From positions 62,001-126,000 of the forward strand of contig NZ_JAIWNC010000010.1 in assembly GCF_020216025.1 (NCBI RefSeq): 64,000 nt of DNA, given 5' to 3'. A program made the translations under genes and the position numbers. The notes beneath the pieces were generated by a model that searched no databases, was not told where the DNA came from, and saw nothing but the letters and a program-made list of their open reading frames with translations. Shown here one piece after another: positions 1 through 55,609 of this stretch (position 1 is its first letter; each line of letters opens with the position of its first letter). This DNA is from Jidongwangia harbinensis (lineage in GTDB: Bacteria; Actinomycetota; Actinomycetes; Mycobacteriales; Micromonosporaceae).

Positions 1-333
1 CGGCGTCCCACTGGAGCGCTCCAGTGGAGCGATATCAACGCGGCGGGGCGGCTGCGCTCGTCCGTGGCGGCGTCGGCTTCGAGGCGCGGGGTAGGGGCGC
101 AAGCTGCTGCACGACCTCGACTCGCCCGGCGCCTGCGACGGCCACGTGGTCCGCAGCGCCTCACTCGCCCCCTTTTCGGCTGGGGCGTGTGGAGCAGTGG
201 CGCGCTGCGCACCTGAGAACTACACGGGGCGTCGCGCTCGACCGGCGATGCTGCGGGCAGCGACGTGCGTACCCAGCCTCCCGGTCGGAGTGGTGGGCCG
301 GAGCCGGGTGGCTCCGGCCCACCGGGCGACGGG
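1..333. other. Left-edge non-coding stretch
   Basis: No gene is supported here. Open frames exist on both strands but have the low-complexity Arg/Ala/Gly-rich composition of GC-rich shadows and no start signals. The only structure is the palindrome at 8-27. The stretch lies downstream of the beta-helix gene, which reads toward the left edge. Confidence 0.6.
8..27. repeat. Dispersed palindrome, copy 1
   Basis: Perfect 20-nt palindrome CCACTGGAGCGCTCCAGTGG. The same core with longer arms recurs at 26252, 39108 and 55564. This copy has lost the outer GGTGT/ACACC arms seen in the others: the right flank reads AGCGATATC. It could be a REP-like intergenic element or an operator for a LacI-family repressor. 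The sequence alone does not decide. Confidence 0.75.
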
Positions 334-26251: not shown

Positions 26252-26295
26252 GACGTTGGTGTACCACTGGAGCGCTCCACTGGTACACCAACGTC
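26252..26295. repeat. Dispersed palindrome, copy 2
   Basis: A 44-nt palindrome with perfect 15-nt outer arms (GACGTTGGTGTACCA) around CTGGAGCGCTCCAC, in which only the outermost pair of the core mismatches. It is 133 nt upstream of the C15-like gene start. Confidence 0.8.
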
Positions 26296-30931: not shown

Positions 30932-33900
30932 ATGCGCATCGAGGATCTGCTGACGATCGCGGTGCCGGAACAGCCGGCGCTCGCCCCGGACAGCACCGCG
31001 ATCGCGTACGTGCTGCGTACCGCGGATCCCGGCGCCGACCGCACCGCGCGCGGCATCTGGCGGGTCGGCACCCACCGCGGCGAGCCGCACCGGCTGACCC
31101 GCGGGCCCGGCGACACCCACCCGGCCTGGTCCCCGGACGGCGACCGCCTCGCGTTCCTGCGTACCCCGGCCGGCGGCCCGGCGCAGCTGTGGATGCTGCC
31201 GTCCGCGGGCGGCGAGCCGGATCAGCTCACCGCGCTGCCGCTCGGCGCCGGGCCGGCGGCGTGGAGCCCGGACGGCACCCGGATCGCGTTCACCGCGCCG
31301 GTGGACCTGCTCGGCGACCCGGCCACCGCGCCGGTGGCCACCGCCCGCCTGGACTACCGGTCCGACGGGACCGGTCTGCACCGCGGGAGACGTAGGCACG
31401 TGCACGTGCTGGACGTCGCGACCGGACGGTGCCGGCGGGTTACCGACGGCGACTGGCACGCCGGGGAACCGGCCTGGTCGCCGGACTCCGCCTGGCTGGC
31501 CTTCCCGGCCGCCACCGCACCGGACGCCGACGTCCGGTACCGCGCGCCGGTGTACGTCCTCGACGTCACCGACGACACCGCGGCGCCGGCGGTCGCGGGA
31601 CTCGCCGACGGGGTGGGCGGACCGCTGGCCTGGCCGGCCGGGGACGACGCGCTGCTGGTCGTGGGCCATGCCGGTGCGCCGGTCGGGCACGCCGCTCTGC
31701 TGCGCGTGCCGCTCGACGGCGGGCCGGTCACCGACCTGACCGCCGGGCTGGACCGCAACGTGATGCCGGGCGGACCGGCGTACCCGGGTGCCCGGCCGCA
31801 GCTCGCCGACCAGGGCCGCACCGTGCTGTTCTGCGTCCGCGACCGCGGCTGCACCCACCTGTACGCGGTCCCGGCGGCCGGCGGCACGCCCCGTCCGGTC
31901 CTGACCGGCGACGGCCGGGTGGTGTCCGGCCTGTCCGTGGCCGGCGACACCGCCGCGACCGTGCTGGCCACCCCGGACTCCTACGGCGAGGTGGTCGCCG
32001 TGGACCTGGCCACCGGCGCCGCGACGGTCCGGTCCGGGCACGACCCGGGCGGGGCGGCGCGGTTCCGGCGTACCCCCCGCGACTTTCCCGTCTCCGACGG
32101 CGCGGTGGTGCCGGGCTGGGTGATCCGTGACCCGGCCGCCACCGGCGCCCAGCCGCTGTTGCTGGACATCCACGGCGGCCCGCACAACGCCTGGCACGGC
32201 GCGGCCGACGACGTGCACCTCTACCAGCAGGAGCTGGCCGCCCGGGGCTGGACCGTGCTGCTGCTCAACCCGCGCGGCAGCGACGGCTACGGGGAGGCGT
32301 CCTTCACCGCCACGGCGGGCGCCTGGGGCGAGGCGGATGCCCGGGACCTCCTGGAACCGGTCGACCGGCTGGTCGCCGACGGGCTCGCCGACCCGGACCG
32401 GCTCGCGGTCACCGGCTACAGCTACGGCGGCTACCTGACCTGCTACCTGACCAGCCGGGACGACCGGTTCGCGGCGGCCGTGGCGGGCGGCGTGGTCGCC
32501 GACCTGACCAGCTTCACCGGCACCTCGGACGAGGGGCACAACCTGGCCGGGTACGAGCTGGGCGGCCACCCGTGGACCCACCCGGACCGGTACGCGGCGA
32601 TGTCCCCGCTCACCGCCGTGGACCGGGTCCGCACGCCGACGCTGATCGTGCAGGGCGACGCCGACCTGACCTGCCCGGTGGGACAGGCCCAGCAGTGGCA
32701 CGCCGCGCTGCGGGCCCGGCACGTACCCACCGAACTCGTCCTCTATCCCGGCGGGGACCACCTGACGGTGATCGACGGACCGCCGTCGCACCGCCTGGAC
32801 TGGAACCGGCGGGTGGCCGGGTGGGTGCAGCGGTACGCCGGCGACGCCACCGGCCCGCGCCCGCGCCCGCTCGACGCCGCGCACTGGCAGCGCCGGCTCG
32901 CCGCCCTGGCGGCCCGGCACCGGGTGCCCGGCGCCGCGCTCGGCGTCCTGCGGCTGCACCCGGGCGCGGACGACGAGCGGATCGAGGTCGCCCACGGCGT
33001 CCTGAACACCGTCACCGGCGTGGCCGCCACCGCCGACTCGCTGTTCCAGATCGGCTCGCAGACCAAGGTGTGGACCACCACGCTGGTCCGGCAACTCGTC
33101 GAGGAGGGCCGCCTCGACCTGGACGCGCCGCTCCTGGAGGTGCTGCCCGAGCTGCGCCTGGCGGACGACGACGCCACCCGGCGGGTCACCATGTGGCACC
33201 TGCTCACCCACACCAGCGGACTCGACGGCGACGTCTTCACCGACACCGGCCGCGGCGACGACGCGCTGGAGCGGTACGTGGCCGGGCTCGCCGAGGCCGG
33301 GCAGAACCACCCCCTCGGCGCCACCTGGTCCTACTGCAACTGCGGCTTCGTGCTGGCCGGCCGGGTGATCGAGAAGCTCACCGGCGGCACCTGGGACGAG
33401 GCGGTCCGGACCCGCCTGGTACGACCGCTCGGCCTGCGGCACACCGTCACGTTGCCGGAGGAGGCGCTGCTGCACCGGGTCGCGGTGGGGCACGTGCCCG
33501 GACCGGACGGGCAACCGGTCCGGGCGCCGGTCGCCATGCTGCCGCGCTCGATCGGACCGGCCGGCCTGATCGCGTCGACGGTCGGCGACGTCCTGACCTT
33601 CGCCCGGCCGCACCTGGCCGGCGGGCTGGCCGCGGACGGCACCCGGATCCTCGGCGCGGACGGCGTGGCCGAGATGGCGGCCCGGCAGGTCGACCTGCCG
33701 GAGCCGGACACGCTCGGGGACTCGTGGGGGCTCGGCTGGAACCGCCGACGCTGGGGCGGGCACCGGCTCATCGGGCACGACGGCACCACCATCGGGCAGT
33801 CCGCGTACCTGTGGCTGCTGCCCGCCGCCGGGCTCGCGGTCACCCTGCTCGCCAACGGCGAGAACACCCGGGACCTGTACCACGACCTGTACCGCGAGGT

Positions 33901-34246
33901 CTTCGCGGAGGTCGCCGGGGTGACCATGCCGGCACCGCTGGCGCCGCCCGCCGACCCGGTACCGGTGGACGCCACCGCGCACCTGGGCCGGTACGAACGC
34001 GCCGGCCACCGGATCGACGTCACCGACGACGTGGGCGGGCTGCGGCTGCGGCTGGAGGTCACCGGTCCGCTCGCCGAGCTGGCCCCGGAGAAGGTCCGCA
34101 CGATGGCCCTGACCCCGGTGGCGGAGAACCGGTTCGTGGTACGCCTGCCGCACAGCCGTACCTGGGTCCCGGTGCTGTTCCTCACCCTGCCCGGCGGCGC
34201 GAAATACCTGCGTTTCGGTGCCCGGGTCACGCCTAAGGTGGCCTGA
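30932..34246 (+). CDS. S9 peptidase fused to S12 beta-lactamase-like domain
   Basis: About 1104 aa from ATG at 30932, with no signal peptide, so cytosolic. Residues ~1-380 are a beta-propeller of WD40-like PD40 repeats (HPAWSPDGDRLAF, AAWSPDGTRIAF). Residues ~390-640 are an S9 prolyl-oligopeptidase catalytic domain: Ser497 in GYSYGGYL, Asp in QGDADLTCP, His in GGDHL. Residues ~650-1010 are a class C beta-lactamase/S12 domain with Ser709-Gln-Thr-Lys712, Tyr801-Cys-Asn and HDG, followed by a beta-sandwich tail. S12 includes D-aminopeptidase and D-Ala carboxypeptidases. Each domain normally occurs alone. It heads an operon with M20, GNAT and racemase genes, so release of amino acids, possibly D-residues, from peptides is inferred. 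Confidence 0.88.
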   Translation: MRIEDLLTIAVPEQPALAPDSTAIAYVLRTADPGADRTARGIWRVGTHRGEPHRLTRGPGDTHPAWSPDGDRLAFLRTPAGGPAQLWMLPSAGGEPDQLTALPLGAGPAAWSPDGTRIAFTAPVDLLGDPATAPVATARLDYRSDGTGLHRGRRRHVHVLDVATGRCRRVTDGDWHAGEPAWSPDSAWLAFPAATAPDADVRYRAPVYVLDVTDDTAAPAVAGLADGVGGPLAWPAGDDALLVVGHAGAPVGHAALLRVPLDGGPVTDLTAGLDRNVMPGGPAYPGARPQLADQGRTVLFCVRDRGCTHLYAVPAAGGTPRPVLTGDGRVVSGLSVAGDTAATVLATPDSYGEVVAVDLATGAATVRSGHDPGGAARFRRTPRDFPVSDGAVVPGWVIRDPAATGAQPLLLDIHGGPHNAWHGAADDVHLYQQELAARGWTVLLLNPRGSDGYGEASFTATAGAWGEADARDLLEPVDRLVADGLADPDRLAVTGYSYGGYLTCYLTSRDDRFAAAVAGGVVADLTSFTGTSDEGHNLAGYELGGHPWTHPDRYAAMSPLTAVDRVRTPTLIVQGDADLTCPVGQAQQWHAALRARHVPTELVLYPGGDHLTVIDGPPSHRLDWNRRVAGWVQRYAGDATGPRPRPLDAAHWQRRLAALAARHRVPGAALGVLRLHPGADDERIEVAHGVLNTVTGVAATADSLFQIGSQTKVWTTTLVRQLVEEGRLDLDAPLLEVLPELRLADDDATRRVTMWHLLTHTSGLDGDVFTDTGRGDDALERYVAGLAEAGQNHPLGATWSYCNCGFVLAGRVIEKLTGGTWDEAVRTRLVRPLGLRHTVTLPEEALLHRVAVGHVPGPDGQPVRAPVAMLPRSIGPAGLIASTVGDVLTFARPHLAGGLAADGTRILGADGVAEMAARQVDLPEPDTLGDSWGLGWNRRRWGGHRLIGHDGTTIGQSAYLWLLPAAGLAVTLLANGENTRDLYHDLYREVFAEVAGVTMPAPLAPPADPVPVDATAHLGRYERAGHRIDVTDDVGGLRLRLEVTGPLAELAPEKVRTMALTPVAENRFVVRLPHSRTWVPVLFLTLPGGAKYLRFGARVTPKVA

Positions 34247-34247
34247 C

Positions 34248-35390
34248 ATGGACACCCTGCTGCCCGACCTGCTCACCGACATCGAGGACCTGGTGACCTG
34301 CGAGTCGCCCTCGGAGGACCTGGCCGCGGTGGCCCGCAGCGCCGAGGTGGTGGCCCGGGTCGGCGCCCGCCGCCTGGGCGCCGAACCGGACCGGCTGGTG
34401 ATCGACGGCGTCAGCCATCTGCGCTGGCGGTTCGGCGCCGGGCCGTCCCGGGTGCTGCTGCTCGGCCACCACGACACCGTGTGGCCGATCGGCTCGCTGC
34501 GCACCCGGCCCTACCGGGTGTCCGGCGGGGTGCTGCACGGGCCGGGCTGCTTCGACATGAAGGCGGGGCTGGTGCTGGCGTTCCACGCGGTCGCCGCGCT
34601 CGCCGACCGGGCCGGCGTGACCGTGCTGGTCACCGGGGACGAGGAGATCGGCTCGTCGACGTCGCGGGCGCTGATCGAGGCGGAGGCCGCCGGGTGCGAC
34701 GCGGTGCTGGTGCTGGAGGCGTCCGCGCCGGGCGGCGCGCTCAAGACCGAGCGCAAGGGCGTCTCCGGATACGTGGTGCGGGCGGTCGGCCGGGCCGCCC
34801 ACGCCGGACTGGAGCCGGAGCGCGGCGTGAACGCCGCCGTGGAGCTGGCCCACCAGGTGCTCGCGGTGCAGGGCCTGGCCGATCCGGTACGCGGGACCAC
34901 CGCCGTGCCCAGCATGCTGACCGCCGGCACCACCTCGAACACGGTCCCGGCCGGCGGCGAGTTCAGCATCGACGTCCGGGTCCGGGACGCCGCCGAACAG
35001 CAGCGGGTGGACGCGGCCGTGCGGGCGCTGCGGCCGGTGACGCCGGGGGCGCGGCTGGAGGTCACCGGTGGGCCGAACCGTCCGCCGCTCGACGCGCACG
35101 CCTCCGCCGCGCTCTACGACCGGGTGGTGGCGGTGGCCGCCGGGCTGGGCCGGCCCGCTCCCGGCCGGGCCGCGGTCGGCGGCGCCTCGGACGGCAACCT
35201 CACCGCCGGCCTCGGCGTTCCGACGCTGGACGGGCTGGGCGCGGTCGGCGGCGGTGCGCACGCCGACGACGAGCACGTCGAGGTCGATGCGCTGGCGCCG
35301 CGGGCGACGCTGCTCACCGCGCTCGTCGCGGACCTGCTCACCGGCGACCGCACCGGTCGCCCGTACCCGTCGGAGATGGTGCAGCCATGA
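34248..35390 (+). CDS. M20 family amidohydrolase (desuccinylase candidate)
   Basis: A 380-aa M20 peptidase (glutamate carboxypeptidase/ArgE/DapE type), starting 1 nt after the preceding stop. Zinc ligands and catalytic acids are present: HHDTVWP, GPGCFDMKAG, GDEEIGS, VLEASAPGG, and C-terminal GGGAHADDEHV. The dimerisation domain begins near KGVSGYVVRAVGRAAHAG. No signal peptide. Genes of this kind next to an N-succinylamino acid racemase encode the L-specific desuccinylase that frees L-amino acid in the last step of D-to-L conversion. Assignment to that step is from context; acyl specificity cannot be read from sequence. The stop overlaps the next ATG (ATGA). Confidence 0.85.
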   Translation: MDTLLPDLLTDIEDLVTCESPSEDLAAVARSAEVVARVGARRLGAEPDRLVIDGVSHLRWRFGAGPSRVLLLGHHDTVWPIGSLRTRPYRVSGGVLHGPGCFDMKAGLVLAFHAVAALADRAGVTVLVTGDEEIGSSTSRALIEAEAAGCDAVLVLEASAPGGALKTERKGVSGYVVRAVGRAAHAGLEPERGVNAAVELAHQVLAVQGLADPVRGTTAVPSMLTAGTTSNTVPAGGEFSIDVRVRDAAEQQRVDAAVRALRPVTPGARLEVTGGPNRPPLDAHASAALYDRVVAVAAGLGRPAPGRAAVGGASDGNLTAGLGVPTLDGLGAVGGGAHADDEHVEVDALAPRATLLTALVADLLTGDRTGRPYPSEMVQP

Positions 35391-36262
35391 CCGATCCGCC
35401 CGCCACCGGCCTGCGGTCACCGGCCGGCGCCGCCGAGGCCGCGGCCGGTGCCGCCGGGGTCCGCATCCGCCCGCTCACCGGGCTCGACGAGTTCGACCAG
35501 GTGTACCGGCTCTACCAGGCGATCTGGCACCCGGACCCGACGAACCCGCCGGTCACCGGGGAACTGCTGCGGGCGCTGACCAAGGCCGGCAACTACGTGG
35601 CCGGTGCCTACGCGGACGGCGAACTGGTCGGCGCCGGCGTCGGGTTCTTCGGCGCACCGGCGCACCGCGAGCTGCACAGCCACATCGCCGGGGTGTCCGC
35701 GGCGGCGCGTGGCCGCAACGTCGGTTTCGCGCTCAAGCTGCACCAGCGGGCCTGGGCGCTGGACCGCGGCGTCGCGGCGATCACCTGGACGTACGACCCG
35801 CTGATCGCCCGTAACGCCTACTTCAACGTGGTCAAGCTGGGCGCCGAGCCGGTGGAGTACCTGCCGAACTTCTACGGCGGCATGCTCGACGGCATCAACG
35901 CCGGCGACGAGACCGACCGGCTGCTGGTGCGCTGGGACCTGACCGCCCCGCACGTCGAGGACGCCGCCGCCGGCCGGATCCGCCGCGTCGACGCCGCCGC
36001 CCTGCGCGCGGCCGGGGCGGTGGTCGGGCTGGACCGCGCCGGCGACGGCACGCCGGTGGCCGGTTCGCCGGACGGCGGGACCGTTCTGGTCGCCGTACCC
36101 CCGGATGTCGGCGCGCTGCGCGGCACCGACCCGGGCCTGGCCCGGCGGTGGCGGATCGCGGTCCGCGACGTGGTGCGGCCGTTGCTCACCGGCGGGGGCC
36201 GGATCACCGGCTTCGACCGGACCGGATGGTACGTCGTCACGCGCGAGAGGACCGAGGCATGA
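35387..36262 (+). CDS. COG3375-type GNAT acyltransferase
   Basis: A 291-aa protein starting in an ATGA overlap with the M20 gene and ending in an ATGA overlap with the racemase gene. The GNAT core spans residues ~25-180: RPLTGLDEFDQVYRLYQAIW, LVGAGVGFFG, SHIAGVSAAARGRNVGFALKLHQRAWAL (acyl-CoA pyrophosphate loop region), AITWTYDPLIARNAYFNVVKLG. The C-terminal ~100 residues form a second domain ending in ITGFDRTGWYVV. COG3375 members are characteristically linked to menC-like racemase genes. In the described pathway the partner N-succinyltransferase acylates D-amino acids with succinyl-CoA. That reaction is assigned here by context. Confidence 0.83.
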   Translation: MTDPPATGLRSPAGAAEAAAGAAGVRIRPLTGLDEFDQVYRLYQAIWHPDPTNPPVTGELLRALTKAGNYVAGAYADGELVGAGVGFFGAPAHRELHSHIAGVSAAARGRNVGFALKLHQRAWALDRGVAAITWTYDPLIARNAYFNVVKLGAEPVEYLPNFYGGMLDGINAGDETDRLLVRWDLTAPHVEDAAAGRIRRVDAAALRAAGAVVGLDRAGDGTPVAGSPDGGTVLVAVPPDVGALRGTDPGLARRWRIAVRDVVRPLLTGGGRITGFDRTGWYVVTRERTEA

Positions 36263-37365
36263 AGCTGACCGGGGTGGAGTTGCGCCGGATCCGGATGCCG
36301 TTGGTGGCACCGTTCCGGACGTCGTTCGGCACCGAGACGTCCCGCGACATCCTGCTGCTGCGGGCGGTCACGGACGTCGCCGAGGGCTGGGGCGAATGCG
36401 TCGCGATGGCGGACCCGCTGTACTCGTCGGAGTACGTCGACGCGGCCGCCGACGTGCTGCGCCGGTTCCTGGTGCCGGCGCTCACCGGGTACCGCCGTCT
36501 CGACGCCGCCGCGGTGGGACCGGCCCTGCACCGGTTCAAGGGGCACCGGATGGCCAAGGCGGCGCTGGAGACCGCGGTGCTGGACGCCGAGCTGCGGGCC
36601 GAGGGCCGGCCGCTGTCCCGGGAACTGGGCGCGGTGCACGACCGGGTACCGGCCGGCGTCTCGGTCGGCATCATGGACTCGATCGGTGAGCTGCTGGACG
36701 CGGTCGGCGGCTACCTGGCCGAGGGCTATCTGCGGATCAAGCTGAAGATCCAGCCCGGGTGGGACGTCGAGCCGGTCCGGGCGGTCCGCGAGCGGTTCGG
36801 CGACGACGTGCTGCTGCAGGTCGACGCGAACACCGCGTACACCCCGGGTGACGGACCCCGGCTCGCCCGGCTCGACCCGTTCGATCTGCTGCTCATCGAG
36901 CAGCCCCTGGACGAGGAGGACCTGCTCGGCCACGCCCGCCTGGCCCGGCAGGTGCGCACCCCGATCTGCCTGGACGAGTCGATCACCTCGGCCCGCGCCG
37001 CCGCCGACGCGATCACGCTCGGCGCCTGCCAGATCGTCAACATCAAGCCCGGCCGGGTCGGCGGCTACCTGGAGTCCCGCCGCATCCACGACGTGTGCGC
37101 CGCGCACGGCGTGCCGGTGTGGTGCGGCGGCATGCTGGAGACCGGGATCGGCCGGGCCGCGAACGTGGCCCTCGCCGCGCTGCCCGGCTTCACCCTGCCC
37201 GGCGACACCTCCGCCTCGGACCGCTACTACCGCACCGACGTCACCGCGCCGTTCGTGCTGGCCGACGGGCACCTCGACGTGCCGACCGGCCCGGGCATCG
37301 GTGTCGAACCGCTCCCGGCGGCGCTCGACGAGGTGACCACGAGCACCGAGTGGCTGACGCCGTAA
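36259..37365 (+). CDS. N-acyl/N-succinyl amino acid racemase (MenC2 family)
   Basis: A 368-aa enolase-superfamily protein of the o-succinylbenzoate synthase/N-succinylamino acid racemase group. All catalytic residues are present: Lys161-x-Lys163 (RIKLKI), metal ligands Asp189 (QVDANTAY), Glu214 (LIEQPLD), Asp239 (CLDES), and Lys263 (NIKPGRVGG). Numbering coincides with that known for the Amycolatopsis N-acylamino acid racemase (Lys163, Asp189, Glu214, Asp239, Lys263). It interconverts D- and L-N-acyl amino acids by 1,1-proton transfer with Mg2+, and may also have OSBS activity. There are no other menaquinone genes here. Flanked by GNAT and M20 genes, it fits the irreversible D-to-L conversion pathway. 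The start lies in an ATGA overlap. Confidence 0.9.
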   Translation: MKLTGVELRRIRMPLVAPFRTSFGTETSRDILLLRAVTDVAEGWGECVAMADPLYSSEYVDAAADVLRRFLVPALTGYRRLDAAAVGPALHRFKGHRMAKAALETAVLDAELRAEGRPLSRELGAVHDRVPAGVSVGIMDSIGELLDAVGGYLAEGYLRIKLKIQPGWDVEPVRAVRERFGDDVLLQVDANTAYTPGDGPRLARLDPFDLLLIEQPLDEEDLLGHARLARQVRTPICLDESITSARAAADAITLGACQIVNIKPGRVGGYLESRRIHDVCAAHGVPVWCGGMLETGIGRAANVALAALPGFTLPGDTSASDRYYRTDVTAPFVLADGHLDVPTGPGIGVEPLPAALDEVTTSTEWLTP

Positions 37366-37379
37366 CGCCCGCACCGCCC

Positions 37380-37385
37380 TACGGT
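37380..37385 (+). promoter_or_regulatory. -10 element for leaderless PucR gene
   Basis: TACGGT ends 6 nt before the GTG at 37392, with no clear ribosome site. This would give the regulator its own leaderless promoter in addition to read-through from the operon, whose stop is only 26 bp upstream. Confidence 0.4.
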
Positions 37386-37391
37386 GGACCC

Positions 37392-39152
37392 GTGGCCACC
37401 GGGAATCTGCGACCTCCGACCAGCCTGCGCCGGGTCCTCGACGACCTCGGCGCCACCCTGCTGGACCTCGTGCACGGCGACCCGGACGCCGCCGGGGTGA
37501 TCGGCGGCGTGGCCATCCACGACCCGCTCGAGGAACCGGTGCTGCCGCGGCACGCGCTGGTGCTCGGCGTCGGGCTGCGCGACCCGGCCGGGATCGCCGG
37601 GCTGCTGCGCGCGCTGGGCCGGCACGGCGCGGCCGGCCTGGTGGTGCGCGCCCCGGTCCCGGCGGCGGGCGTCCCGGCGCCGGTCGGGCCGGTCGAGGCC
37701 GGGCCGGTTGAGGTCGGGCCGGTCGCCACCGGGCCGGTCGCTCCGGCGGAGGATCTCGCCGCCGCGGTGGCGGACAGCGGGGTGGCGCTGCTCGGGCTGG
37801 CCCCGGGTGCGTCCTGGGCGCAACTGGCCGCCCTGCTGCGCGGACTGCTCGCCGAGGGCGACATCGGCGACGCCGGCCCGGAGACGCTCGGCGGCGTGCC
37901 GTCCGGCGACCTGTTCGCGCTCGCCAACGCGGTCGCCGCGCTGCTCGACGCGCCGGTGACCATCGAGGACCGCAGCTCCCGGGTGCTGGCCTTCTCCGGC
38001 CGCCAGGACGAGGCCGATCCGTCCCGGGTGGCGACCATCCTGGGCCGGCAGGTGCCCGAACGGTACGCCCGCCTGCTCACCGAGCGCGGCACGTTCCAGA
38101 CCCTGTACCGCAGCGCCGGGCCGGTCTACCTGGAGCCCGTGGTGGCCGAGCGGGGCGAGGCCTCGCTGCCCCGGGTCGCGGTCGCGGTCCGGGCCGGCGA
38201 CGAGATCCTCGGGTCGATCTGGGCGGCGGTGCGCGGCCCGCTCAGCGACGAGCGGATGCGGGCCCTGGCCGACGCCGCCCCGCTGGTGGCCCTGCACCTG
38301 CTGCGCGTCCGGGCCGGCGCGGACGTGCAGCGCCGGCTGCGCGCGGACCTGCTCAGCACCGCACTGGAGGGCGGCACCGGCGCCCGCGAGGCGCTGCACC
38401 GGCTCGGCCTGGCCGACCAGCCGGTGACCGTCCTGGCGCTGGCCCTCGTCGACGCACCGGACCCCTCCGCCGAGCTGATCACCGAGCGGGAGCGGCTGGC
38501 CGACGCGTTCGCCATGCACCTGTCCGCGGTGCACCCGCGCTGCTCCGCGGCGCTGATCGGCGACGTGGCGTACGGGCTCGTCCCGGTGGCCGCCGAGGCG
38601 GACGGCGAGCAGCGTGCCGTGCGGATCGCCACCGACTTCCTGGACCGGGTCGGCGCCCGGGTCCGTGCGGTGGCCGGCGTCGGGCCGGTGGCACCGGACG
38701 TGGCCGGGCTGGCGGCCGCGCGGGCCAGCGCCGACCGGGCCCTGCGGGTGCTGCGGACCGGCGACGGACCGCGGCGGGTGGCCACACTGGCCGACGTGCA
38801 CGTGGAGGCGCTGCTGCTGGAACTGCGGGACCTGGTGGCGGCGCGCGGCGACCGGCCGACCGGTGCGGTGGCGCGGCTGGCGGCGTACGACGAGCGGCAC
38901 CGTACCCACCTGGTCGAGACGCTGCGCACGTGGCTGGACTCGTTCGGCGACGTGATCGCGGCGGCGTCGGCGCTGTACGTGCACCCGAACACGTTCCGGT
39001 ACCGGCTGCGCCGGCTGGCCGAGATCGGCGGCATCGACCTCGCCGATCCGGAGGCCAGGTTCGCGGCGATGCTGCAGTTGCGGGTGGTGTCGCCGCGGGC
39101 GGACGGTGGTGTTCCAGTGGAGCGCTCCAGTGGAACACCGGCGTCGTTCTGA
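37392..39152 (+). CDS. PucR family transcriptional regulator
   Basis: About 586 aa from GTG at 37392. The N-terminal ~170 residues form a purine-catabolism-regulator-like ligand domain containing a short degenerate repeat (GPVEAGPVEVGPVATGPVAPAE). Next come a GAF-like region (ALLDAPVTIEDRSSRVLAFSGRQDEAD, ILGSIWAAVRGPLS), a GGDEF-like central domain of CdaR type (~330-480), and the PucR helix-turn-helix at the C-terminus (ALYVHPNTFRYRLRRLAEIGGIDLADPEARFAAMLQL). The last residues, GVPVERSSGTPASF, are encoded by the dispersed palindrome at 39108, so the original stop has probably been overrun. It sits directly after the racemase gene and is the likely local regulator of amino acid or peptide use. 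Confidence 0.88.
   Translation: MATGNLRPPTSLRRVLDDLGATLLDLVHGDPDAAGVIGGVAIHDPLEEPVLPRHALVLGVGLRDPAGIAGLLRALGRHGAAGLVVRAPVPAAGVPAPVGPVEAGPVEVGPVATGPVAPAEDLAAAVADSGVALLGLAPGASWAQLAALLRGLLAEGDIGDAGPETLGGVPSGDLFALANAVAALLDAPVTIEDRSSRVLAFSGRQDEADPSRVATILGRQVPERYARLLTERGTFQTLYRSAGPVYLEPVVAERGEASLPRVAVAVRAGDEILGSIWAAVRGPLSDERMRALADAAPLVALHLLRVRAGADVQRRLRADLLSTALEGGTGAREALHRLGLADQPVTVLALALVDAPDPSAELITERERLADAFAMHLSAVHPRCSAALIGDVAYGLVPVAAEADGEQRAVRIATDFLDRVGARVRAVAGVGPVAPDVAGLAAARASADRALRVLRTGDGPRRVATLADVHVEALLLELRDLVAARGDRPTGAVARLAAYDERHRTHLVETLRTWLDSFGDVIAAASALYVHPNTFRYRLRRLAEIGGIDLADPEARFAAMLQLRVVSPRADGGVPVERSSGTPASF
39108..39139. repeat. Dispersed palindrome, copy 3
   Basis: A 32-nt palindrome (GGTGTTCCAGTGGAGC and GCTCCAGTGGAACACC) with one mismatched pair. 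It overlaps the 3' end of the PucR coding sequence and supplies its last codons. A further partial arm ACGACGCTGGTGTACC lies at 39164-39179. Confidence 0.8.
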
Positions 39153-40252: not shown

Positions 40253-40272
40253 ACATGGGAGCGCTCCCATGT
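40253..40272. promoter_or_regulatory. CebR/CelR-type operator, box 1
   Basis: ACATGGGAGCGCTCCCATGT, a perfect 20-nt palindrome containing TGGGAGCGCTCCCA, the known binding site of the LacI-family cellobiose-responsive repressors CebR (Streptomyces) and CelR (Thermobifida). It lies about 340 nt before the GH48 cellulase start and upstream of the weak promoter candidate. No lacI-family gene is in the window, so the repressor is encoded elsewhere. Confidence 0.85.
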
Positions 40273-40394: not shown

Positions 40395-40410
40395 ATGGGA
40401 GCGCTCCCAT
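40395..40410. promoter_or_regulatory. CebR/CelR-type operator, box 2
   Basis: ATGGGAGCGCTCCCAT, containing the exact 14-nt TGGGAGCGCTCCCA. It lies about 200 nt before the GH48 start and 140 nt after box 1, a spacing compatible with repressor looping or roadblock. TTGATA directly precedes it. Confidence 0.85.
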
Positions 40411-40611: not shown

Positions 40612-43533
40612 ATGAGACTTGACAGAATGAGACGCCGCGCGGCTTACGTCGCGGCCGGCGTGCTGGTCACCGCTGGGGTGGTGAGCGTGCCCATGGCGGC
40701 GCACGCGGCCGTCTCGTGTGACGTCGTGTACGCCACCAACGACTGGGGCAACGGTTTCACCGCGGACGTCACCATCCGGAACCTCGGTGACCCGCTCACC
40801 AGCTGGAACCTCGGATGGACGTTCCCGAACAGCGGCCAGCGCGTCACCCAGGCGTGGTCGTCCACTGTCACCCAGTCCGGCAGCCAGGTCACCGCGTCCA
40901 ACGCGGCCTGGAACGGCAGCGTGCCGGCCAACGGCTCGATCAGCTTCGGCTTCAACGGCACCCACAGCGGCGCCAACCCGAAGCCGACGGCGTTCACGCT
41001 GAACGGCGTGGCCTGCGGTGGCGCACCCACCAACCAGGCGCCGTCGGTGTCGCTCGGCCTGCCGGCCGGACCGTTCGAGGCGCCGGCCGACGTGCCGCTG
41101 ACCGCGAACCCCGCCGACGCGGACGGCACGATCAGCAAGGTCGAGTTCTACCGCAACGGCCTGCTGATCAACACCGACACCACCGCGCCGTACACCTACA
41201 CGCTCGAGGATCTGCCGGCCGGTGACTACACCGTGCAGGCCAAGGCGTACGACAACGCCGGCGCCGCGGTGACCTCGGAGCGGGCGTTCACGGTCACCGG
41301 TGCCTCCGGCCCGGCCCTGATCGCCACGCCCTCCTCGGTGAGCGTCGCCGAGGGCGGCACCGCCTCGGTCAACCTCAAGCTCAGCGCCGCGCCCAGCGCC
41401 AGCGTGTCGGTCGGCCTGGCCCGTACCGGCGACGCCGACATCACGGCGACGGCGACCGCTTCCACGCTGACCTCGTCCAACTGGAACACCGGCGTCACCG
41501 TGAACGTGGCGGCGGCCCAGGACGAGGACACCGTGAGCAGCACCGCCACCATCACGGCGACGGCCACCGGCTACGCGCCGCTGGCGATCACCGCCACCGA
41601 GATGGACGACGACGCACCGGGCGGCGCCGCGGACGAGTACACCGAGCGCTTCCTGGACCAGTACGGCAAGATCAAGAACTCCGGGTACTTCAGCCCGGAC
41701 GGCGTGCCGTACCACTCCATCGAGACGCTGATCGTCGAGGCGCCGGACCACGGCCACGAGACCACGTCCGAGGCGTTCAGCTTCTGGATCTGGCTCGAGG
41801 CGCAGTACGGCCGGGTCACCCAGAACTGGGCCCCGTTCAACAACTCGTGGACCGTGATGGAGAAGTACATCATCCCGTCCCACGCCGACCAGCCCACCGC
41901 GGGCGTGGACGGCACCCCGCAGTACGCCGCCGAGTACAACCGGCCCGACCAGTACCCGTCGGCGCTGCAGCAGAGCGTCCCGGTGGGTAAGGACCCGCTG
42001 CGCAGCGAGCTGCAGTCCGCCTACGGCACCGGCGACATCTACGGCATGCACTGGCTGCTCGACGTCGACAACACCTACGGTTTCGGCCGCTGCGGCGACG
42101 AGACCACCAAGCCGGCCTACATCAACACGTTCCAGCGTGGGCCGCAGGAGTCGGTGTGGGAGACCGTGCCGCAGCCGTCCTGCGAGACGTTCGCGCACGG
42201 CGGCCCGAACGGGTTCCTGGACATCTCGATCAAGGACTCGGGCACCCCGGCGAAGCAGTGGAAGTACACCAACGCCCCGGACGCCGACGCCCGCGCCGTG
42301 CAGGCCGCGTACTGGGCGCTGAAGTGGGCCAAGGAGCAGAACAAGCAGGCCGACGTCGCCGCCACCGTCGCCAAGGCGGCCAAGATGGGTGACTACCTGC
42401 GGTACGCGATGTTCGACAAGTACTTCAAGAAGATCGGCAACTGCGTCAACCCGAACTCGTGTGCGGCCGGCACCGGCAAGGACTCGGCGCACTACCTGAT
42501 GTCCTGGTACTACGCCTGGGGCGGCGCGACCGACCCGGCGGCCGGCTGGTCGTGGCGGATCGGTTCCAGCCACGCCCACTTCGGTTACCAGAACCCGTTC
42601 GCGGCGTGGGCCCTGGTCAACACGCCGGAACTGTCCTCGGCGATGAAGGGTTCCACCGCGAAGGCGGACTGGACCAAGAGCATGGAACGGCAGCTGGAGT
42701 TCTACACCTGGCTGCAGTCGGCCGAGGGTGCCATCGCCGGTGGCGCGACGAACAGCTGGGACGGCGCGTACGCCCAGCCGCCGTCGGGCACGCCGACGTT
42801 CTACGGCATGCCGTACACCGAACACCCCGTGTACCACGACCCGGGCAGCAACAGCTGGTTCGGCATGCAGGTGTGGTCGATGCAGCGCATCGCCGAGCTC
42901 TACCACGAGACCGGCAACGCCAAGGCCAAGGCCCTGCTCGACAAGTGGGTGCCGTGGGCGATCGCGAACACCACGATCGGTACCGGCAAGGACTACCAGG
43001 TGCCGTCCACGCTGGAATGGCGTGGCGCCCCGGCCACCTGGAACCCGACCAGCCCGGCTGCCAACAGCAACCTGCACGTCACGGTCGCGAACCACACCCA
43101 GGACGTGGGTGTGACCGCGGCGTACGCCCGGACCCTGATCTGGTACGCGGCGAAGGCGAACAACGCCTCCGCCAAGGCGACCGCCAAGGGCCTGCTCGAC
43201 GGCATGAACGCCAACGCCGACGCTCAGGGCGTGTCGGTGGCGGAGACCCGCGAGGACTTCAAGCGGTTCGACGACAAGTTCGACTCCGCGACCGGCCAGG
43301 GCCTGTACCTGCCGCCGGGCTGGAGCGGCACCATGCCGAACGGTGACCAGATCGCTCCCGGAAAGACCTTCCTGGACATCCGGTCGTTCTACAAGAAGGA
43401 CAAGGACTGGGCCAAGGTTCAGGCGTACCTGGACGGCGGACCGGCCCCGGTCTTCAACTACCACCGGTTCTGGGCGCAGTCCGACCTCGCGATGGGGTAC
43501 GCGGACTACGGCCGGCTCTTCCCCAACGGCTGA
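40612..43533 (+). CDS. Secreted GH48 cellulase with CBM2
   Basis: About 973 aa, with GAGGAGA 11 nt before the ATG. The signal peptide ends at AHA-AVSC. Order: CBM2 (~34-135, [23 protein letters not shown], conserved Trp and flanking Cys), Ig-like domain (~143-235, [23 protein letters not shown]), a second beta domain of Calx-beta-like type (~240-335), and a GH48 catalytic module (~345-973: [39 protein letters not shown] with candidate acid Glu387, [38 protein letters not shown]). GH48 enzymes are processive, reducing-end cellobiohydrolases (inverting) and are central to bacterial cellulose degradation. Two CebR-type boxes upstream indicate induction by cellobiose. A strong hairpin follows the stop. 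Confidence 0.95.
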
Positions 43534-45122: not shown

Positions 45123-45435
45123 CGGCCCGCCCGACGATCGGGCGCCCGGGCATCCGCGCGGCTCCGTGGGAGCGGGGGACGGGGTGGGCGCCCCGTCCCC
45201 CGCGATGTCCTGCGAGGACGTGTTGCTGTGGAACTGGAGCCGTGCCACGCGGAATGCGGTGAGGTCTCGCCTCCTCCTGGGGACGATCGGAGAACTTTGG
45301 GAGCGCTCCCATGTCAATGTAACAGCTGTCACGCGGACATAACAGACGTGTTTCGATCCCTAGTTCCGGCGATCGCCGCGATTTCTCGGATATGGTCGGT
45401 GATCAATGTGAACGCGGCTCGGGTTGGGGGAGTGG
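45123..45435. other. Promoter region of S37/GH operon
   Basis: A 313-bp gap between the P1 peptidase and S37 peptidase genes, with no gene. It contains a small inverted repeat (TCCTGCGAGGA near 45207) and the CebR-type box overlapping a promoter at 45297-45325. Confidence 0.6.
45297..45325 (+). promoter_or_regulatory. CebR-type operator overlapping a promoter
   Basis: TGGGAGCGCTCCCA (45298-45311) is a perfect CebR/CelR-type box. TTGGGA at 45297-45302, inside the box, is followed by a 17-nt spacer and TAACAG at 45320-45325, a good -35/-10 pair. Repressor binding would cover the -35 element. The predicted start is near 45332, about 105 nt before the S37 gene. Confidence 0.75.
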
Positions 45436-55563: not shown

Positions 55564-55609
55564 CGACGGTGGTGTGCCACTGGAGCGCTCCAGTGGTACA
55601 CCACCGTCG
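55564..55609. repeat. Dispersed palindrome, copy 4
   Basis: A 46-nt palindrome (left arm CGACGGTGGTGTGCCACTGG, core AGCGCT, right arm to CACCACCGTCG) with one mismatched pair, 9 nt after the carboxypeptidase stop. As RNA it would form a 20+ bp hairpin and might act as a terminator. Confidence 0.8.

Follow-up and report, generated by a model that had tools for sequence, protein, structure and literature searches.

An apparently reduced operon in Jidongwangia harbinensis, widespread in actinobacteria and probably for mixed-chirality peptide use

Five genes lying in one direction (+ strand) at positions 30932–39152 of the window, the 64,000-nucleotide stretch of Jidongwangia harbinensis DNA analysed here, appear to be a reduced copy of a wider actinobacterial operon, and we put the probability that this operon serves the use of mixed-chirality peptides at about 63%. 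In order, they specify an S9-S12 fusion peptidase, an M20 hydrolase, a GNAT acyltransferase, an enolase-superfamily racemase and a PucR-type regulator. To the observed gene content, order, conservation, motif residues and lack of MenD we add a pathway in which each activity, substrate, location and regulatory step is predicted from sequence. In its full form an Opp/Dpp-type ABC importer would take up peptides, and the presumably cytosolic fusion would degrade them, its S9 half acting at L-residues and its S12 half at D-residues. The GNAT enzyme would N-succinylate the freed D-amino acids, the racemase would convert the N-succinyl-D to the N-succinyl-L derivatives, and the M20 enzyme would hydrolyse the L-form, pulling the balance from D to L, with PucR sensing substrate or product and controlling the operon. 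The locus of the window genome has no importer genes, and uptake there would need a different Opp/Dpp system. The further proposal, that the Amycolatopsis-type "MenC" racemases naturally serve a self-contained system of this sort, with L- and D-peptidases fused in front of stereoinversion through a succinyl cycle, stands at marginally less than even odds.

The five genes and their products

The genes lie on one strand, the first four joined by ATGA or 1-nt junctions, as the original prediction had them. The first (30932..34246, +) encodes a 1104 amino acid protein in which Peptidase_S9 (143 bits) and Beta-lactamase (S12; 202 bits) domains, both over the Pfam cut-offs, occupy one ORF; a beta-propeller and Peptidase_S9 cover residues ~1–640 and the S12/beta-lactamase fold ~641–1104. 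The candidate S9 triad (Ser497, Asp578, His610) and the S12 motifs (Ser709xxLys712, Tyr801xAsn803, His949xGly951) are invariant in 13 operon homologues, and we assume for these residues the roles of an S9 triad and of SxxK, YxN and HxG-type motifs. The S12 domain best matches IS11 among solved structures, its solved relatives including the R61 DD-peptidase and alkaline D-peptidase, as well as the nonribosomal peptide cyclases Ulm16 and one that we take to be SurE. Among the best 25 of 51 NCBIfam matches of the fusion, all under their cut-offs, are models for esterases and class C beta-lactamases, which also belong to the S12 family, so that the S12 half is only predicted to be D-specific. A simple scan detected no strongly hydrophobic N-terminus in the fusions or stand-alone S12 proteins examined, and the fusion is probably cytosolic. 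Modelling of the full-length fusion gave a poor structure (pLDDT 62.4, pTM 0.44), which was left out of all conclusions.

After a 1-nt gap follows the M20 gene (34248..35390, +), with Peptidase_M20 and M20_dimer domains over the Pfam cut-offs and carboxypeptidase G2 (CPG2; 1cg2) as the closest solved structure of its product. No NCBIfam model was over cut-off, the best being glutamate carboxypeptidase PRK06133. Residues His74, Asp103, Glu132, Glu133, Glu157 and His338 are invariant in 12 homologues. The amidohydrolase encoded near a GNAT and a racemase on one Priestia plasmid is of the TIGR01891 type, which the window protein is not, and the two score 32 bits against each other, a weak comparison with Bacillaceae in that it uses this one record and not the characterised Geobacillus enzyme. 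Since the M20 protein is CPG2-like rather than of the TIGR01891 type, its proposed function as an N-succinyl-L-amino acid desuccinylase is put forward as a prediction.

The GNAT gene (35387..36262, +) overlaps the M20 gene by ATGA. Its product gave weak Pfam matches to Acetyltransf_6 (26.5 bits, cut-off 22) and Acetyltransf_1 (23.6 bits, cut-off 20.7), and no match among NCBIfam models or PDB sequences. The structure model (pLDDT 91.9) fits solved GNAT acetyltransferases over ~175 of 265 residues, the C-terminal third being without a match, and a D-amino acid N-succinyltransferase is proposed. An enzyme of the GNAT kind making N-succinyl- or N-acetyl-D-Phe, D-Tyr or D-Trp is credited to Sakai 2006 in the accessible part of PMC8762209.

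The racemase gene (36259..37365, +) likewise overlaps its predecessor by ATGA and ends in TAA; GNAT, racemase and an M20-type hydrolase are thus encoded together at 34248–37365. The protein matched MR_MLE_C (Pfam, 187 bits, over cut-off) and, with 312.7 bits against a cut-off of 200.65, the model TIGR01928, which bears the name o-succinylbenzoate synthase. Its residues 1–366 align without gaps to 1SJA (629.8 bits), the solved N-acylamino acid racemase of Amycolatopsis. All catalytic residues had been claimed at the Amycolatopsis numbering, and the ungapped alignment confirmed Lys163, Asp189, Glu214, Asp239 and Lys263 there; at 1SJA numbering the two lysines would be catalytic and the three acidic residues would bind the metal. 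They and Lys161 are invariant in 17 operon racemases. Arg266, presumably the second-shell determinant of the NSAR/OSBS subfamily, is present in the window racemase and in 17/17 operon racemases; 7s8w differs from 1SJA at this position. By these features the racemase is assigned to the NSAR/OSBS subfamily of the enolase superfamily, and it would racemise N-succinylamino acids.

The PucR-type gene (37392..39152, +) lies 26 nt beyond the racemase stop, its most likely start being the GTG at 37392, and carries HTH_30 and GGDEF_2 domains over the Pfam cut-offs. Judging by gene position alone, the protein probably controls the operon, sensing substrate or product. The last codons of this ORF contain a copy of a genome-specific dispersed palindrome (39106..39141, no strand assigned), which is probably unrelated to operon function.

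Conservation and the fuller operon of relatives

Linkage in related genomes had been named beforehand as one half of the test of the prediction, and it proved to be conserved. A class sample of 296 genomes held 25 full S9-S12 fusions, the window's included and two S9-only matches (one stop each) left out. In 25/25 the GNAT gene lies less than 7 kb from the fusion on the same strand, and in 23 of these within 2.8 kb (distances compared by hand). Near the 24 fusions other than the window's were found M20 (24), GNAT (24), racemase (23), PucR (21), a full importer (21) and a D-aminoacylase (14), in a set where 18 of the 24 come from one family (f21), as do all 14 loci with a D-aminoacylase. Counted as misses were a substrate-binding protein gene located downstream in two loci, a DppF under the score limit in one, and three loci (L099–L101) ending at a contig edge before PucR, L100 also before the racemase. 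The clustering is not due to chance, because the same gene order recurs in other actinobacterial genera.

The family sample (200 genomes of the family to which the window belongs) contained 26 fusion copies, among them one (G032) matching positions 1–899 of 1103, with 2 S9-only and 14 S12-only matches left out. Linkage was looser than in the class sample, 18/26 copies lying near a GNAT gene and 8/26 not. One genus (six genomes) has the importer, fusion and PucR genes, joined by M20 in five of the six, away from those for GNAT and racemase, which are located elsewhere in the genome. For fusion versus racemase genomes (24/25 against 56/175) a Fisher test gave p ~4e-10, with relatedness ignored. 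M20 matches occurred in 79/200 genomes; the 32 places scoring at least 540 bits, sorted by hand within each assembly, comprised 23 at less than 2 kb from GNAT, 4 beside the fusion only and 5 beside neither.

Another search matched exact peptide patterns of the GNAT protein encoded in the window and consequently favours close relatives; its 34 loci included the fusion in 24, the racemase in 32, some S9 or S12 peptidase in 32 and at least one gene of an Opp/Dpp-type importer in 24. At many GNAT-racemase loci a peptidase of this sort is absent from the neighbourhood. Fusion and GNAT occur without an adjacent racemase at L028, L037, L065 and L066, of which L037 and L065 seem to represent a single contig. 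Several operons lack M20, among them the three Amycolatopsis loci.

In most relatives an Opp/Dpp-type ABC importer precedes the fusion (21/24 fusion loci in the class sample, 19/25 in the family sample, 18/24 among the GNAT-found loci), and an annotated Streptomyces plasmid carries the ten operon genes in one direction. The genes originally listed are all present, but most relatives have a longer operon; the idea that the list represents the whole operon was rejected. The importer proteins of two loci contain SBP_bac_5, BPD_transp_1 and ABC_tran/oligo_HPY domains (Pfam). No NCBIfam model was over cut-off for them, the best for the substrate-binding protein being TIGR04028 and then NikA; since nickel and oligopeptide models scored close together, peptides are the presumed cargo. 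A search of the window's own genome, in which 150 of 245 candidates were scored, gave one weak importer match (32 percent, three stops) spanning the permease-ATPase border, which was taken as not homologous throughout. Homologues of D-aminoacylase, scoring 285 and 309 bits against solved enzymes of that name, are encoded beside the operon in one sampled family, where the gene is often added, and after GNAT-racemase in one genus.

Alternative roles

The racemase could be the o-succinylbenzoate synthase (MenC) of menaquinone synthesis and its neighbours incidental: TIGR01928 is an equivalog of that name matched above cut-off, annotated plasmid records label the operon racemase menC, and the PDB names of near-identical relatives list both activities. 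A menaquinone role is nevertheless unlikely, because the genome has mqnC (462 bits, over cut-off) and no menD over cut-off (best 53.5 bits against 244.2), as judged by these models rather than full men or mqn sets. Nor did any additional MenC of the PRK02901 type exceed its cut-off, and this reading was set aside; the linkage to peptide-type genes and Arg266 in all 17 operon racemases also speak against it, and we regard it as highly improbable. Some carriers of the operon are antibiotic producers, and the S12 matches to nonribosomal peptide cyclases would suit a defensive operon, whose D-stereospecific peptidases destroy nonribosomal peptide antibiotics with amino acid recovery being secondary. 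According to the accessible part of PMC9541196, a D-stereospecific serine peptidase activity, suggested to be an S12 enzyme, hydrolyses gramicidin A. That activity was found in culture supernatant, whereas the proteins examined here show no strongly hydrophobic N-terminus; to import an antibiotic in order to destroy it would be unusual, and the conversion module points to nutrition, all of which makes defence an unlikely main function.

Somewhat less unlikely, although still improbable, is that peptidoglycan peptides are the principal substrate as in Bacillus subtilis, where YkfABC, including an enolase-superfamily epimerase, adjoin dppB-E (PMC2954226, accessible part). In seven M20-GNAT-racemase loci without the fusion a transglycosylase-like gene comes next on the same strand, and the one such protein scanned has Transglycosylas and LysM domains (Pfam); the neighbours of these loci are generally conserved, however, and synteny may explain the gene. 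No LD-carboxypeptidase or NlpC/P60 domains appeared in a Pfam scan of 20 relatives' proteins, drawn from a minority of clusters, and the GNAT activity cited in PMC8762209 (accessible part) concerns aromatic D-amino acids. Genomics supports what was originally predicted of a D-to-L module beside a peptidase fusion with a linked PucR; peptidoglycan debris is no more than a possible source for it.

Known systems and significance

The N-succinylamino acid racemase pathway of Geobacillus, reportedly described by Sakai et al. in 2006, is said to convert D- to L-amino acids irreversibly. It shares the GNAT acyltransferase, racemase and hydrolase with the operon, and we know of no peptidase fusion or importer in it. 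The Priestia plasmid has an RpiR-type regulator beside its TIGR01891 amidohydrolase, in place of the PucR and CPG2-like M20 of the window. Racemases of the 1SJA group share the catalytic residues and Arg266 over 366 ungapped residues; the Amycolatopsis enzyme is known mainly as a biocatalyst, whereas its close homologues at three Amycolatopsis loci (L009, L013 and L025) sit in the importer-peptidase operon. Its kinetics are tabulated in PMC8142540 (accessible part).

The B. subtilis dpp-ykf region, as presented in the accessible part of PMC2954226, likewise places D-residue peptidases and an enolase-superfamily epimerase next to the genes of a dipeptide ABC transporter, and the murein peptide permease is there termed unidentified. 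It epimerises the dipeptide L-Ala-D-Glu directly, whereas the operon would act through N-succinyl amino acids; it uses an NlpC/P60 endopeptidase and an LD-carboxypeptidase instead of S9-S12, and that part of the source describes no GNAT and M20 cycle. The antibiotic-attacking peptidases of PMC9541196 (accessible part), where BogQ is named as an S12 member, share the suggested S12 class and the D-residue theme, but their activity is extracellular, while in the operon S12 shares one chain with S9, and the genes for amino acid conversion are linked to it. The kind of system is thus already known. The combination had been called undescribed, and none of the literature matches listed describes this composition, subscription journals being thinly covered and absence from print not established; the accessible parts of PMC4922564 and PMC7431475 hold nothing on such an operon.

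If true, the proposal would give a natural role to a racemase family that has found use in biocatalysis and whose members often carry the label of a menaquinone enzyme. The fused S9-S12 peptidase would offer chiral peptide chemistry a new lead, and the operon suggests how soil actinobacteria may feed on D-residue peptides from cell walls or nonribosomal peptides.

Gene content and palindromes of the window

The window belongs to a genome of 9.74 Mb. ORF reading and Pfam searches bore out the five-gene set of the original prediction, all five genes being intact and in one direction. A single ORF (30932–34246) specifies the 1104 aa peptidase fusion, with S9 and S12 domains, and the M20 gene, with M20 domains, starts 1 nt past its end. 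The genes for the GNAT-domain protein and the racemase (MR_MLE) each start in an ATGA overlap, and the gene with PucR domains most likely starts at GTG 37392, 26 nt past the racemase stop. No importer gene was found in this locus; the best matches in the same genome to the DppC-DppD fusion of relatives reached 46 percent and covered just the ATPase half.

A near-perfect dispersed palindrome with the core CCASTGGAGCGCTCCASTGG, inside an inverted repeat of ~44 bp, occurs at four places in the window (8–27, 26264–26283, 39114–39133 and 55577–55596; 0.01 expected), one copy forming the end of the PucR ORF. Exact core matches number 77 genome-wide, and none was found in the 19 relatives searched, 11 of the same genus. 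These palindromes may be a strain-specific repeat family or an operator set. Three exact TGGGAGCGCTCCCA palindromes (40256–40269, 40396–40409 and 45298–45311; 0.02 expected), two of which lie upstream of a large ORF with its end at 43533, resemble CebR-type (LacI family) operators.

Linkage and layout in relatives

Using the window's GNAT as query, with one genome per species, 34 loci were found, including those in Amycolatopsis, Streptomyces, Kribbella, Pseudonocardia, Nonomuraea, Actinomadura and Microbacterium. Among these were 24 with the fusion, 32 with the racemase, 25 with M20, 30 with PucR and 24 with one or more importer genes of the SBP/Dpp type. The conserved linkage expected from the original prediction was evident in an even class sample of 296 genomes (GNAT threshold E up to 1e-60), which yielded GNAT in 62 and the full fusion in 25. 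For all 25 fusions, the window's included, GNAT lay no more than 7 kb away and on the fusion's own strand, the distance being at most 2.8 kb in 23. Each of the 24 copies from other genomes had M20 and GNAT with it; the racemase accompanied 23, a full importer and PucR 21 each, and a D-aminoacylase 14. The sample of the window's family comprised 200 genomes (thresholds: GNAT E up to 1e-30, racemase 1e-120), of which 92 carried GNAT, 80 the racemase and 25 the fusion (26 copies, 18 with GNAT within 2 kb). Six of the eight copies away from GNAT belong to one genus, in which importer, fusion and PucR (with M20 in 5/6) stand apart from GNAT and racemase, both present elsewhere in the same genome.

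The usual order in relatives is S12 (present or absent), SBP, DppB, DppC-DppD fusion, DppF, S9-S12, M20, GNAT, racemase and PucR; one Streptomyces plasmid record has all ten genes in this order and a single direction, and in a second the operon parts are rearranged. By Pfam, importer proteins from two loci belong to the families of oligopeptide and dipeptide systems; no NCBIfam model scored above its cut-off and nickel models scored near the peptide models, so peptides are a putative cargo. In four loci (L032–L034 and L038) S12 replaces the fusion, and four others (L015, L017, L019 and L031) carry a prolyl oligopeptidase together with another kind of importer on the opposite strand. Genes for class A beta-lactamase-like proteins or serine hydrolases occur within or adjoining the operon in some lineages (L099:3088–3918, L137:11405–12298 and L137:20475–21377), neither L137 protein having a clear signal-type N-terminus. 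Deinococcus radiodurans plasmid MP1 (L133) carries the racemase, an SBP gene split in two and GNAT, which places the racemase-GNAT pair in a further import setting. A Sulfitobacter indolifex plasmid (L135) has, in a row, an RpiR-type regulator, an amino acid ABC transporter, racemase and GNAT.

Racemase and proposed route

Ungapped alignment with the solved N-acylamino acid racemase 1SJA placed the catalytic residues at the predicted numbers (Lys163, Asp189, Glu214, Asp239 and Lys263) and revealed Arg266; all are invariant across 17 operon racemases. The racemase falls in a subfamily for which a table in PMC8142540 gives measured N-succinylamino acid racemase activity. A menaquinone role is unlikely, since in model searches of the window's genome MenD fell below its cut-off and MqnC scored above its own. 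In the annotated public plasmid records examined, racemases of this type adjoining GNAT genes are labelled menC, o-succinylbenzoate synthase, possibly a widespread mislabel.

Gene content, order, conservation and conserved motif residues are directly observed, and the following route is proposed from them. Since a simple scan found no strongly hydrophobic N-terminus, the fusion would work on imported peptides in the cytosol, its two halves perhaps dealing with L- and D-residues. The D-amino acid would be succinylated by GNAT, the N-succinyl forms interconverted by the racemase and the L-form hydrolysed by M20, with PucR as putative regulator. The least secure steps are the D-specificity of the S12 domain, the importer cargo and M20 as desuccinylase, the last because M20 resembles carboxypeptidase G2 (CPG2) and is absent from some operons.

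Several further observations point to D-amino acids. D-aminoacylase homologues (285 and 309 bits against solved D-aminoacylases) adjoin the operon in one family (f21), at 14 of its 18 sampled fusion loci, and lie downstream of GNAT-racemase in two loci (L080 and L081) of another genus. The S12 relatives with solved structures are IS11 and SurE-like proteins, followed by DD-peptidase R61 and alkaline D-peptidase among others. A GNAT enzyme is cited, in PMC8762209, as making N-succinyl- and N-acetyl-aromatic D-amino acids. In seven fusion-less loci (L036, L073–L076, L082 and L083) a transglycosylase-like gene lies 3' of the racemase on the same strand, with kinase and lectin-domain genes recurring nearby; the seven transglycosylase-like genes belong to one cluster, and Transglycosylas and LysM domains are present in the one from L036. 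This neighbour hints, as one extra clue, at a peptidoglycan source.

Relation to known systems

No description of this operon was found among the literature matches listed. Its logic would join Bacillus subtilis dpp-ykf, as outlined in PMC2954226, to the N-succinylamino acid racemase pathway, although the examples compared differ in peptidases, M20 type and regulator. The operon is best regarded as a variation on these two known themes.
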